From Flavobacteriaceae bacterium (GTDB lineage Bacteria > Bacteroidota > Bacteroidia > Flavobacteriales > Flavobacteriaceae), in the NCBI GenBank assembly GCA_947457615.1, contig CANGWK010000003.1:85323-149322 (forward strand): DNA of 64,000 bases. The letters are read 5' to 3'. The position numbers were made by a program, and so were the translations under genes. The notes beneath the pieces are model-generated. The model was not told the DNA's origin and did no database searches. It worked only from the letters and a program-made list of their open reading frames with translations. Each line of letters begins with the position of its first letter. Position 1 is the first letter of the stretch. Below are positions 7,359 through 50,660 of this stretch, one piece after another.

Positions 7359-7411
7359 AAGCGAATCTTTTGGGCATTACCATAAACGTATTTCCCGCTA
7401 TTCATAACAAC

Positions 7412-7446
7412 AAAAAAATGCTTCCCAACACGGGAAGCATTTTTTG
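7412..7446. terminator. Bidirectional terminator rho/fhs
   Basis: AAAAAATGCTTCCC-aacac-GGGAAGCATTTTTT. Confidence 0.9.
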
Positions 7447-7515
7447 TTTTCATTACTATCGGGGCTATCAAGTTTATGTATTTTGTGAAAGTAGAATTTT
7501 TTAAAAGACAAAAAC

Positions 7516-25644: not shown

Positions 25645-25698
25645 ATGCTGATTGTACACTGCTTATATATTGTAAAGTTATTGCGAATTCTATACGTG

Positions 25699-25801
25699 TT
25701 GCGTGAGGGATAAAAGCGGCATCCTTTGCTTTTTTTTGATTTTGCGAGGTCACGAAGCAATCTAAAAAAGCAAAGATACAGCGTATAGCCCGACCCAAAG
25801 G
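25699..25801 (-). repeat. Dispersed hairpin repeat of Flavobacterium type (GGTCGGGCTATACGCTGTATCTTTGC ... GCAAAGGATGCCGCTTTTATCCCTCACGC)
   Basis: Reverse strand carries complementary GCTTTTTTAGATTGCTTCGTGACC...AAAAAAAAGCAAAGG arms; similar text remembered from other Flavobacterium intergenic regions. Confidence 0.7.
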
Positions 25802-40198: not shown

Positions 40199-40224
40199 AG
40201 TTACCAAGTACAATTTACAAAGTT

Positions 40225-40392
40225 TAGCCCGGATAGAAGTGGAAAGCTTTTAGAAATGGAAAGCTAATTTTTTGTTGCTAGAAAAAAGCGACCATCGGAA
40301 GCTCTTTTTATTGCTTACAAAAATAGCTTGACATGAAAAAACTTGCAACGGAAAGCCGGAAAGTGGCATACTAAAATGCCTAATGTTTCGCT
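40225..40392 (+). repeat. Dispersed repeat family A copy, longer variable middle
   Basis: TAGCCCGGATAGAAGTGGAAAGC ... GCAACGGAAAGCCGGAAAGTGG...TAAAATGCCTAATGTTTCGCT. Confidence 0.75.
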
Positions 40393-43340: not shown

Positions 43341-46028
43341 TTAATCTGCTATATTTGGATTAAGCCATTTGTGGGCCATTTCGGTGGAAATTCCTCTTCG
43401 TTTGGCATAGTCTATTACCTGATCTCCTTTTATTTTTCCGAGTCCGAAATACTTACTTTCGGGGTTTGCAAAATAGTAACCTGATACTGAGGATGCTGGC
43501 CACATTGCCATACTTTCAGTTAACCTTACTCCAATTTCTTTTTCGACGTTTAGTAATTTCCAAATTGTTGGTTTTTCTAAATGATCAGGGCAGGCAGGAT
43601 AACCTGGTGCAGGACGAATTCCATTATATTCCTCAGCTATTAAATCTTGGTTATTTAAATTTTCATCAGAAGCATAACCCCAAATTTCTTTACGGACTTT
43701 TAGATGCAAATATTCGGCAAAGGCCTCGGCCAATCTATCGCCTAATGCTTTTACTAATATGGAATTATAGTCGTCTAATTGTGTTTCAAATTCAATTGCT
43801 TTTTCTTCCACTCCAAATCCAGTAGTTACGCAAAAACAACCAATATAATCTTGCTTTCCCGAATGCTTTGGAGCAATAAAATCGGATAAAGAAATGTTTG
43901 GAGCACCAGCTGTTTTCAAACTTTGTTGTCTTAAAGTTAGAAGCTGGAAGCTGGAGGCAGGAAGTTTAACTTCAATGTCATCATCGTTTATAGTATTCGC
44001 AGGAAAAATTCCTAGAATTCCTTTGGCGGTTAGCCATTTTTCAGAAACAATTTTTCGCAACATTTCTTGAGCGTCCGCAAATAAATTGGTTGCTTGTTCC
44101 CCAACAACTTCATCAGTTAATATTGCAGGATATTTTCCATATAATTCCCACGAATTGAAAAAAGGTGTCCAATCGATAAAATCTACTAATTCTGAAAGTT
44201 CTACTTCAATAGTTTTTGTACCTATAAAATTTGGCTTTACTGGATTGAAGTTATCCCAATTTAATTGCAATTTGTTTTTTCGTGCATCTTCTATGGAAAG
44301 GAAATTCTTATCTCGACTTCGGTTTAAATATCCTTCTCTAAGCGCATCATATTCTTCGCGAATACCTTTCACATATTCTGCTTTGCTTTCAACTTGCAAT
44401 AAATTACTAGCCACCGTTACCGCCCTTGAAGCATCATTTACGTGAATTACAGTTGCAGTATATTCGGGCGCAATTTTCACAGCAGTGTGTGCTCGAGAAG
44501 TAGTTGCGCCACCAATCATTATTGGAATTTTAATATTTAATTTATCTAATTCTTTAGCTAAATAAACCATCTCATCTAGGGATGGTGTAATTAATCCGCT
44601 GAGTCCAATAATATCCACATTATGTTCAATTGCTGCTTGGATAATTTTTTCTGGAGGAACCATAACTCCCAAATCAATAATTTCAAAATTATTACATCCT
44701 AAAACTACTGCAACAATATTTTTACCTATATCATGCACATCTCCTTTTACTGTAGCCATAAGGATTTTTCCGTTACTTGAGGAAGTCAAGCCATCTTTTT
44801 CAAGTTCAATATATGGCAAAAGATGCGCCACCGCTTTTTTCATTACCCTAGCCGATTTTACGACTTGGGGTAAAAACATTTTTCCGCTTCCGAATAAATC
44901 GCCAACTACATTCATTCCTGCCATTAGGTTTATTTCTATAACTTCAATGGCTTTGTTTGCCTCTAATCGAGCTTCCTCAACATCCAATTCAATAAATTCA
45001 TCTATACCTTTTACTAACGAATGGGTTAGTCGTTCTTGAATAGAAGTACTTCGCCATTCTACCTCTCCCCCAACCCCTCTCCGAAGGAGAGGGGAGTAGG
45101 ATCCTTTAAAAGTTTCTGCTAAATCTAATAATCTTTCGGTAGCATCTTCTCTTCTATTTAGGAGAACATCTTCAACATGTTCTAAAAGTGTTGAGTCAAT
45201 TTGATCATAAATTTCAAGCATTTCTGGATTTACAATTCCCATGGTCATTCCGTTTTGGATAGCATGGTATAAAAAGGCCGAATGCATAGCTTCCCGAACT
45301 TTATCGTTACCACGAAACGAGAAAGAAACATTGCTTACTCCCCCCGAAACTCCTGCAAAAGGAAGGTTTTCTCGAATCCATTTGGTGGCTTTGAAAAAAT
45401 CTAAAGCGTTTAATTTATGTTCGTCCATTCCGGTTGCAACCGGAAAAATATTTGGATCAAAAATTATGTCTCTCGCAGGAAAATTTACTTCGTTTACTAG
45501 AATATCATAACTTCTTTTGCAAATTTCTATACGTCTTTCGTAAGTATCGGCTTGACCTTTTTCGTCAAATGCCATAACAATTACTGCCGCACCATATCGT
45601 TTTATTAATTTGGCATGGTGGATAAATTGTGCTTCTCCTTCTTTTAAAGAGATAGAATTGACAACTCCTTTTCCTTGAATAACTTTTAAACCCGCTTCGA
45701 TAATTTCCCATTTGGAACTATCAATCATAACAGGAACTCGAGCAATATCTGGTTCGGCGGCAATTAGATTTAGGAATTTGGTCATTGCATAAACTCCATC
45801 TAACATTCCTTCATCCATATTAACATCGATGATTTGCGCACCACCTTCTACTTGTTCTCGTGCAACAGAAATTGCATCTTCGTACTTTTCTTCTTTTATT
45901 AATCGGAGAAATTTTCGGGAACCTGTAACATTAGTTCGTTCTCCAACGTTCACGAAAATAGAATTTTCATTTACGTAAAGTGGCTCTAAACCAGAAAGTT
46001 GCAAATTTATTTTATTTGATCTTGTCAT
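43341..46028 (-). CDS. metH: Cobalamin-dependent methionine synthase, C-terminal half (pterin, B12 and activation domains)
   Basis: [50 protein letters not shown], activation domain [21 protein letters not shown]. Confidence 0.95.
45061..45096 (-). repeat. CCTCTCCCCC-AACCCCTCTCC-GAAGGAGAGGGGAG repeat inside metH
   Basis: acctctcccccaacccctctccgaaggagaggggag, in frame, encoding [12 protein letters not shown]. Confidence 0.85.
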
Positions 46029-46081
46029 ATTTAATTATCAATAAGACGCTTATAACTAATTTATTATTTTGAAAATGAAAT

Positions 46082-46591
46082 TTAATTTGTTAAATAATAT
46101 TTTACATTAACTAACTGAATTGATTGTATCACACCCAAATTAAGAGATGCCTGTTTATCAAAAGAAAAAATACAACTTGAATTAGGATTTATTTCATTGC
46201 AGGTAGAAATTGCTCCATTAGTAAAACCTGAAGAAGACTCAAGACCATCCGTATTTACAGTTATAAAAGCAAAACCTTTTATTATAAAATTATTTGGATT
46301 ATTTAGTTTTATATCAAATTTCAATCTGTTTGTATTATTCCCTGTGTCAGGAGTGAAATTAAAATTTAGTACTTCGTAAGTAAAATTTTGTAGTGGTGTT
46401 TGCTCTTGTATAGGAGTTACAACATAATCACATGGAACCACGGATTGAGATTCAGGAATATAAGAAGAACCAGTTGGTGTTATAATAGTTCTGCTTGGAA
46501 TAACAATTGTTTTAGTACAATTTTCAGCTGTAGAACAACTAGCAAGAGTACTTAAAACAATACTGCAAAGAAATAGGATATTTTTTTTCAT
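46082..46591 (-). CDS. Putative lipoprotein between the two metH halves
   Basis: Lipobox-like LASCSTAEN; no family recognised. Confidence 0.7.
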   Translation of the reverse strand: MKKNILFLCSIVLSTLASCSTAENCTKTIVIPSRTIITPTGSSYIPESQSVVPCDYVVTPIQEQTPLQNFTYEVLNFNFTPDTGNNTNRLKFDIKLNNPNNFIIKGFAFITVNTDGLESSSGFTNGAISTCNEINPNSSCIFSFDKQASLNLGVIQSIQLVNVKYYLTN

Positions 46592-46593
46592 TT

Positions 46594-47571
46594 TTAAACT
46601 ATTCTAGGTTTGAATTCTTTTGCAACGTCTGCAATTGCTTTTATATGCTCTGGCGTTGTGCCGCAACATCCGCCAATTATGTTTACTAAATTGTCATTTA
46701 GATATTCTCTAATTAAGGCTTGCATTTCTAATGGTGTTTGATCGTATTGACCAAAGGCATTAGGCAAACCAGCATTAGGATGAGCCGATATATTTAATTG
46801 GGTATTCATTGCCAATCGCTTTAAGTAAGGTTTTAATTGATCGGCACCCAATGCACAATTAAACCCAATGCTTAACAACGGTATGTGCGAAATGGAGATT
46901 AAAAACGCTTCTACTGTTTGACCTGAAAGGGTTCTTCCGGACGCATCGGTGATGGTGCCAGAAACCATTAATGGAATATCTATATTGCGTTCTTCTTTAA
47001 CATCTTCGATAGCGAAAAGTGCAGCTTTGGCATTTAAGGTGTCAAATATCGTTTCAACTAATAGAACATCGCAACCGCCATCAACTAGTGCTTCTACTTG
47101 TTGTTTATAGGCAATTCGTAAACCGTCAAAAGTTACTGCACGATATCCTGGATCATTTACATCTGGACTCATGGAAGCAGTTCTATTGGTTGGTCCTATA
47201 GATCCAGCTACAAAACGAGGTCTATCCGTAAATTCGTCCGCAACTTCACGGGCAATTTTAGCCGATTGGTAGTTTAGTTCGTATACGATATCTTCAAGGT
47301 GGTAATCTGCCATTCCGATGGTGGTTCCAGAGAAGGTGTTTGTTTCTACAATGTCGGCACCTGCTTGAAAATACAAACGATGGACTTGCTTAACGGCTTC
47401 GGGTTGGGTGATAGAAAGTAAGTCGTTGTTGCCTTTTAAGGAATGTGGGAAGTCTTTAAATCGTTCGCCTCGAAAATCTTCTTCAGAGAAGTTGTTTCGT
47501 TGCAACATGGTCCCCATGGCGCCATCGAGCACAAGGATTCTTTCTTTTATTGCTTGTTCTATTTTAGTCAT
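46594..47571 (-). CDS. metH: Homocysteine S-methyltransferase, N-terminal half of split MetH
   Basis: ILVLDGAMGTMLQRNNFSEEDFRGERF, Zn ligands GFNCALGAD and IIGGCCGTTPEHI. Confidence 0.94.
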   Translation of the reverse strand: MTKIEQAIKERILVLDGAMGTMLQRNNFSEEDFRGERFKDFPHSLKGNNDLLSITQPEAVKQVHRLYFQAGADIVETNTFSGTTIGMADYHLEDIVYELNYQSAKIAREVADEFTDRPRFVAGSIGPTNRTASMSPDVNDPGYRAVTFDGLRIAYKQQVEALVDGGCDVLLVETIFDTLNAKAALFAIEDVKEERNIDIPLMVSGTITDASGRTLSGQTVEAFLISISHIPLLSIGFNCALGADQLKPYLKRLAMNTQLNISAHPNAGLPNAFGQYDQTPLEMQALIREYLNDNLVNIIGGCCGTTPEHIKAIADVAKEFKPRIV

Positions 47572-47707
47572 AGTTTTTATTTCACAGAGATTAACTAAGT
47601 TTTCACGAAGTCTCTCAAAGATTTTATTTTTTAAACCATAATGGAAATTAAGTTTATTAAGAAATAATTCTTTTAGAAACTTAATTTTACAAAAAGGGAT
47701 TGCTCTT

Positions 47708-47825
47708 TAGCCCCGATTGAAGTGGAAATCCTTTCCAACCTGACAGGTTTTTGAAACCTGTAAGGTTGGAAAGATTGCAACAAAAAGCGGGAAATTGGTT
47801 TGCTAAAATGCGCAAGCCATTCGCT
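47708..47825 (+). repeat. Dispersed repeat family A copy with internal hairpin
   Basis: TAGCCCCGATTGAAGTGGAAATCC + hairpin CCAACCTGACAGGTTT/AAACCTGTAAGGTTGG (47735-47769) + GCAACAAAAAGCGGGAAATTGGTTTGCTAAAATGCGCAAGCCATTCGCT. Confidence 0.85.
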
Positions 47826-47913
47826 ACATATTATTTCAATTGTCAAATGACGTATGAAAATTCTGCAATGTAATTGTATGTTATCGTGGAAAGAGAGAGG
47901 GGAAATTCTCGTG

Positions 47914-48013
47914 GTTATCTTTGTTTGATTTCTCAAACTAGAATGTAGCACCTTCTACAGGGTAGGGTTGCTAAGCTTTCGTCGGGTCTATTCCCTCGGG
48001 CTTTCGTGATAAC
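47914..48013 (-). ncRNA. SAM-I (S-box) riboswitch aptamer
   Basis: Reverse strand GTTATCACGAAAGCCCGAGGGAATAGACCCGACGAAAGCTTAGCAACCCTACCCTGTAGAAGGTGCTACATTCTAGTTTGAGAAATCAAACAAAGATAAC: P1 GTTATC/GATAAC, GAGGGA...GACCC, CTTAGCAACC core, GGTGCTACATTCT, P4 GTTTGA-GAAA-TCAAAC. Confidence 0.9.
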
Positions 48014-48112
48014 AAACAGTATGTTTATGAACACTGCAAAGTAAGGACATAGAATTGGTAATTGCAATAAAAATCTTAAATATGTTTGAATTTTATACTA
48101 TATCGTTGTAAT

Positions 48113-49251: not shown

Positions 49252-49261
49252 CAATCAGAAT

Positions 49262-49313
49262 AAAGAGGAAAAATTTGAACTGATTGCAACCTCGTTAAAA
49301 AATGCTAAAGCAG
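49262..49313 (+). ncRNA. SAM-II-like (SAM_alpha) riboswitch upstream of metK
   Basis: AAAGAGGAAAAATTTGAACTGATTGCAACCTCGTTAAAAAATGCTAAAGCAG: P1 GAGG/CCTC around an ATTTGA..CTGATTGCA loop, then GTTAAA...GCTAAAGC pseudoknot strand; follows TAAATTTG box at 49244-49251. Confidence 0.75.
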
Positions 49314-49409
49314 AATACCTCGCCTTTAGTATTTCGTGCAATTTTCATTTTTCTTCACTTAAATTAATTAATTATTACTGAACAATTTCAGTATAAAAAC
49401 TAAATTATT

Positions 49410-50660
49410 ATGGCATATTTATTTACGTCAGAGTCAGTCAGTGAAGGACATCCAGACAAAGTAGCAGATCAAATTAGTGATGCATTAATTGACAACTTTT
49501 TAGCTTTTGATCCAGAATCGAAAGTAGCTTGCGAAACTTTAGTTACCACAGGGCAAGTTATTCTTGCTGGGGAAGTAAAATCTAATACCTACCTTGATGT
49601 GCAAACTATTGCAAGAGAGGTAATCAAGAAAATTGGTTACACTAAAAGCGAATACATGTTTGAAGCAAATTCTTGTGGGGTGCTTTCGGCAATTCACGAA
49701 CAATCTGCCGATATTAACCAAGGAGTGGATAGAGCTAATAAAGAAGATCAAGGAGCTGGAGATCAAGGAATGATGTTTGGTTATGCAACTAATGAAACTG
49801 AAAATTACATGCCTTTGGCTTTAGATTTATCGCATGCATTATTAATTGAATTAGCTAATTTAAGAAGAGAAAATTCTGAAATTACCTATTTACGCCCGGA
49901 TGCTAAGTCGCAAGTAACTTTAGAATATTCAGACGACAATAAACCGCAGCGAATTGATGCTATTGTAATTTCAACGCAACATGATGATTTTGACGAAGAA
50001 GAAAAAATGTTGGCAAAAATAAAAAGCGATTTAGTTACAATATTAATTCCTAGAATTAAAGCTAAATATCCGCAATATGCTCATTTCTTTAACGATAACA
50101 TCACTTACCACATTAACCCAACAGGTAAATTTGTAATTGGTGGACCTCATGGAGATACTGGATTAACTGGAAGAAAAATTATTGTGGACACTTATGGTGG
50201 AAAAGGAGCTCACGGAGGTGGCGCTTTCTCTGGAAAAGACCCAAGTAAAGTAGACAGAAGTGCTGCTTATGCAACCCGTCACATTGCTAAAAACTTAGTT
50301 GCAGCAGGATTGTGTGATCAAGTATTAGTTCAAGTATCGTATGCAATTGGAGTTGCTAAACCAACTTCTATTTATGTAGATACTTATGGTACTGCTAAAG
50401 TTGAATTAAATGATGGCGCAATTAGCAAAATTGTAGAAGGAATTTTTGATATGCGCCCTTACTTCATTGAGCAACGTTTAAAACTACGAAATCCTATTTA
50501 CAGTGAAACAGCTGCTTATGGCCACATGGGAAGAACTCCAGAAACAGTAACTAAAACTTTTTCTGCACCGGGAGGAAACGAAAAAACGATAACCGTAGAA
50601 TTATTTACCTGGGAAAAATTAGATTATGTTGGCGTAGTTAAAGAGGCATTTAAATTATAA
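49410..50660 (+). CDS. metK: S-adenosylmethionine synthetase
   Basis: [66 protein letters not shown]. Confidence 0.97.

Follow-up and report, generated by a model that had tools for sequence, protein, structure and literature searches.

The window, meaning the whole 64,000-nucleotide stretch of Flavobacteriaceae DNA that was analysed, carries a complete SAM-I riboswitch aptamer on its minus strand (47912–48015; Rfam RF00162, full length, 70.5 bits, E 1.9e-14, gathering score of 44.4 passed). As expected for this family, the aptamer sits upstream of a methionine gene, metH, whose N-terminal half (46594–47571, minus strand, 325 aa; an ORF call compared with relatives) is the gene downstream of the leader; 342 nt separate the P1 3′ strand from the ATG at 47571. 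These positions agree with the first-pass annotation, which had put the aptamer at 47914–48013 and the ATG about 340 nt beyond it. The complete hairpin repeat that it had seen in the leader, at 47708–47825, proves to be an entire Flavo-1 element, Rfam arm and second arm together; the identity of the family and the finding that its Rfam strand runs opposite to metH are additions of the present analysis.

The −7 promoter consensus of Bacteroidetes is TANNTTTG. A likely −7 box, TTACTTTG (48037–48044, minus strand), matches it at 7 of 8 positions upstream of the aptamer, and the same place in the metH leaders of many relatives holds an exact TACATTTG or TACCTTTG. A second promoter between 47571 and 47708, which the first-pass annotation had considered, finds no support in the sequence, with no exact TANNTTTG box on the metH strand from 47571 to 48015. 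Between Flavo-1 and the metH start lies an A/T-rich inverted repeat (47645–47687, minus strand; 21-nt arms, 81% complementary). Relatives had hinted at another dispersed repeat immediately upstream of the metH start, but the 64-kb window contains no match to it.

Two features of the surroundings deserve record. The metH gene is split over 43341–47571 (minus strand) into the N-terminal ORF and a C-terminal ORF of 895 aa, with a 169-aa lipoprotein-like ORF in between; in three genomes of the genus it is an unsplit open frame of ~1250 aa. Divergent from the metH riboswitch and ~1.2 kb from it, a SAM-II (long loop, RF01726) riboswitch occupies 49259–49318 on the plus strand, upstream of a metK-like ORF at 49410. 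Both classes thus occur in one genome, as they do in several relatives; a 2007 survey listed no species with both (PMC2258182).

The Flavo-1 element and its copies

Flavo-1, described as an RNA by Weinberg et al. 2010 (PMC2864571), has been characterized as widespread in Flavobacteriaceae and as offering no hint of its function (PMC9723704); our literature search on that function returned nothing beyond these two papers. The portion modelled by Rfam (RF01705) spans 47705–47798 on the plus strand and is matched in full (model positions 1–76 of 76; 74.9 bits against a gathering score of 42; E 1.1e-14), with the arms, the internal loops and the variable tip all in common. That tip is an apical hairpin (47731–47773) bearing an AACCTG..AGGTT palindrome pair; an inverted-repeat search gives it 20-nt arms at 47731–47750 and 47754–47773 that are 95% complementary across a 3-nt spacer. 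The palindrome is not a repeat family of its own: the exact pair occurs at only three places in the genome, two of which are Flavo-1 tips.

Flavo-1 is longer than its Rfam model. The full element (47708–47825, plus strand, antisense to metH) consists of the long arm, a second hairpin arm whose loop is T-rich, and a closing stem, AGC/GCT, which together are predicted to form a three-way junction; the second arm and the closing stem fall outside the model. Among 48 copies parsed in the same genome, 36 have the second arm (the long class) and 9 belong to a short class. On the transcribed strand, the leader segment folds at −45.4 kcal/mol, compared with −27.0 ± 3.4 for shuffled sequences (z −5.4); since none of 200 shuffles did as well, this structure is not due to chance.

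Rather than as the discrete sRNA gene of its Rfam entry, Flavo-1 behaves as a dispersed palindromic repeat, its copies mostly antisense to the flanking genes. The window holds three further copies, at 7387–7470 (minus), 25688–25799 (plus) and 40222–40366 (plus), and the whole 2.85-Mb genome holds 58 above the cut-off. Match counts in eight relatives range from 3 to 111. In an order-level sample, matches occur in 60 of 198 genomes and 18 of 73 genera, and each of the 18 listed genomes from the same genus has at least 21 or 22, up to 22 candidates having been scored. Flanking genes were assigned by a simple ORF rule in three distant genomes, namely this one (63 copies) and two relatives, G010 (58) and G036 (at least 64, some weaker ones being left out). 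Copies were merged where they had an orthologous neighbor on the same side and strand, which gave 149 sites. Thirty of these are present in at least two genomes: 6 in all three, 17 in G010 and G036 only, 5 in this genome and G036, and 2 in this genome and G010; the rest belong to single genomes. Besides metH, the six three-genome sites lie next to nrdA/nrdB-, ruvB/queG-, rpoD/rpe- and lepA/dusB-like genes and a hydrolase, names that come from reading the sequences rather than from a search. The metH copy is therefore among the oldest Flavo-1 sites and is not alone there; its age is unusual, not unique.

The orientation of these sites is biased. Where the flanking genes are co-directional, antisense placement of the Rfam strand outnumbers sense by 70 sites to 27 (p 1.5e-5; 149 sites, three genomes). 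Taken by genome, the antisense-to-sense counts are 31:7 here, 29:14 in G010 and 29:13 in G036, or 24:5, 23:12 and 24:12 where both ORFs have at least 150 aa, the last two at p 0.09 and 0.07. This bias, which is apparently new, suggests that transcription matters to where Flavo-1 survives. Replication strand is not supported as its cause: with dnaA at ~1.2 kb and the terminus assumed to lie opposite, lagging-to-leading counts are 32:26 and 34:30. Our result differs from that for Flavobacterium psychrophilum, in which Flavo-1 hits are indistinctly sense or antisense to transcribed regions and many lie in none (PMC9723704), although the two measures are not identical.

Across seven core pairs in 92 distinct copies, 614 cells are Watson–Crick, whereas G-U pairs number only 7 on the Rfam strand and 5 on the other, with 18 cells of other kinds; the tips resemble the core in their near absence of G-U pairs. 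That wobble intermediates are so scarce points to paired arms being replaced as blocks, through recombination between copies or through template switching, or else to selection on a DNA hairpin. Counted over 148 copies, G-U pairs number 38 on the Rfam strand and 16 on the other, in a similar ratio whichever way the genes run; as a means of assigning the strand this excess is weak, the copies being related.

In being short, palindromic, intergenic, present in many copies and vertically kept at many sites, Flavo-1 resembles the REP/REPIN elements that are moved by RAYT Y1 transposases. However, the single Y1 (RAYT-like) gene found in this genome (G000:C1:111266-111610; L061, L094) is flanked by a different palindrome of its own, GCTCCTACGGAGC, with no Flavo-1 arms nearby. 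Flavo-1 was thus rejected as the REP of the resident transposase, and the analysis turned up no enzyme that would mobilize Flavo-1.

Inheritance of the metH-leader copy

We read the metH leaders of 50 genomes of the genus, which we take to be Flavobacterium. Of these leaders, 34 contain Flavo-1, always antisense to metH; Rfam detects 28, and six degenerate or variant copies were recognized by eye (L034, L057, L058, L060, L138 and L143). Recurrence at the same site and in the same orientation rules out a recent private insertion. The SAM-I aptamer is found in 43 leaders, 31 with Flavo-1 and 12 without, while three leaders, all from one clade, have Flavo-1 and no SAM-I, and four have neither. 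The riboswitch and the repeat are therefore separable. In the clade concerned (L056, L134 and L141), the promoter box and Flavo-1 are kept where no aptamer match is seen.

On the MetH tree, the four leader states need 9 changes, compared with 17.7 when they are shuffled, and one clade keeps Flavo-1 in 25 of its 26 genomes. The simplest reading of this distribution is one old insertion followed by several losses; repeated gain at one place and in one orientation is less likely. When the leader copies were aligned with their tips replaced by GAAA, changes on both sides were found at 5 of 12 predicted pairs, and the sequence of the tip itself has turned over. In the leaders of two species, L130 and L138, the same foreign segment (AACGAAGTTCACTGAACTCC...) lies inside the long arm of Flavo-1, which points to a further small mobile repeat.

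The SAM-I switch and its predicted platform

The 5′ strand of P1/P2, TGTTATCACGAAAG (48001–48014, minus strand), is common to the ligand-bound and alternative structures. We defined anti-P1 as the best predicted duplex partner of this strand within ~95 nt downstream. Here that partner is CTTTCCACGATAACA (47879–47893, minus strand), the core of the predicted expression platform. Whether or not Flavo-1 is present, every one of the 43 SAM-I leaders has its best partner 14–33 nt after P1, upstream of the repeat in those that carry it. This partner reads CTTTC..GATAAC or closely similar and copies the 3′ strand of P1. The duplexes have a mean z of −2.0, and in 19 of 43 leaders 10 or fewer of 200 shuffles do as well; because significance is modest in single leaders, the weight rests on the shared position. 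Apparent compensating changes between P1 and anti-P1 occur in L147 (GGTTATC with GATAACC) and L042 (CGTTATC with GATAACG).

Folding predictions agree with a modular leader. Averaged over 31 leaders folded without ligand, pairing of the P1 5′ strand is 0.44 with anti-P1 and 0.02 with the P1 3′ strand. The repeat pairs at 0.55 within itself, at 0.05 with the aptamer or platform, and at 0.06 with downstream sequence. Since anti-P1 holds the same place in all 43 leaders, ahead of any Flavo-1, the switching part is predicted to be intact.

Like other members of RF00162, this leader has a complete aptamer ahead of a methionine gene. It differs in that no intrinsic terminator was detected after the aptamer, where we find no terminator-like site before metH, and in its predicted platform, in which anti-P1 duplicates the P1 3′ strand. 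The distance from P1 to the ATG is 74–178 nt in leaders without the repeat and 179–370 nt in those with it. Such a spread makes it unlikely that the platform masks the start codon, and termination or RNA decay is the more likely output of the switch; that it might be Rho-dependent is a guess.

A probable passenger in the metH leader, and its alternatives

The reading that we consider probable is that the metH leader carries an old, vertically inherited, antisense Flavo-1 copy of the long class, mainly as a tolerated passenger beside a switch that is predicted to be intact. The antisense insertion into the leader would date from an ancestor shared by most of the genus. Transcription would start upstream of the aptamer and proceed through aptamer, anti-P1, repeat and metH. 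SAM would stabilize P1, and without SAM the P1 5′ strand would pair with anti-P1 at 47879–47893, so that the decision would be made before polymerase reaches Flavo-1; the output would be early termination, perhaps Rho-dependent, or decay of the RNA. Flavo-1 would then fold independently, mainly as a structured spacer, and we infer that its effect on the gene is close to neutral. The equally old sites at other genes support the passenger reading, as great age is not special to metH. Against it, retention in 25 of 26 genomes, and pairing kept by two-sided changes while the tip turned over, could reflect selection for function. The orientation bias relative to genes and the modest significance of anti-P1 in many single leaders also weigh against it.

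To one alternative we give a minor share of belief: the repeat would be a domesticated module whose transcribed strand aids metH, for example as a shield against Rho or RNase or by stabilizing the mRNA, and would be kept by selection. In its favor, besides near-complete retention in one clade, Flavo-1 persists after loss of SAM-I in three genomes, pairing is preserved by changes on both sides, and the antisense excess at tandem sites (70:27) comes with no bias in replication strand. However, SAM-I and anti-P1 persist in several lineages that have no repeat, and sites beside unrelated genes are just as old. Moreover, the G-U excess (38 versus 16) falls on the Rfam strand regardless of gene direction, whereas selection on the mRNA strand predicts otherwise. 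The G-U pairs slightly favor instead a small RNA transcribed from the plus strand, antisense to the metH leader, as does the Rfam type of the family ("Gene; sRNA"). We regard such an RNA as improbable, because the plus strand has no exact TANNTTTG box from 46612 to 47916, a span that takes in ~1 kb upstream of Flavo-1 on its Rfam strand, and because hits in F. psychrophilum are sense or antisense to transcribed regions, many lying in none (PMC9723704). Most doubtful of all is the proposal of the first-pass annotation that the repeat might change or replace the riboswitch's expression platform, or uncouple it. The location of the repeat between aptamer and gene, where it adds ~120 nt of strong structure, speaks for the idea. 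Yet anti-P1 precedes the repeat in every leader that has both and stands in the same place in the 12 that lack it, predicted cross-pairing of the repeat is small next to its self-pairing, and the arrangement is ancestral and widespread.

A broader view, which we offer tentatively and hold to be rather unlikely, would treat Flavo-1 as a mobile palindrome whose survival depends on transcription: antisense copies would be kept, and some, that at metH included, would act in cis as mRNA modules beside SAM-I and independently of it. Leaders of metH that naturally have or lack Flavo-1 provide a defined place to test the role of the element. Likewise, the conserved anti-P1 strand provides a testable model of switching for the SAM-I riboswitches of this genus that have no intrinsic terminator.
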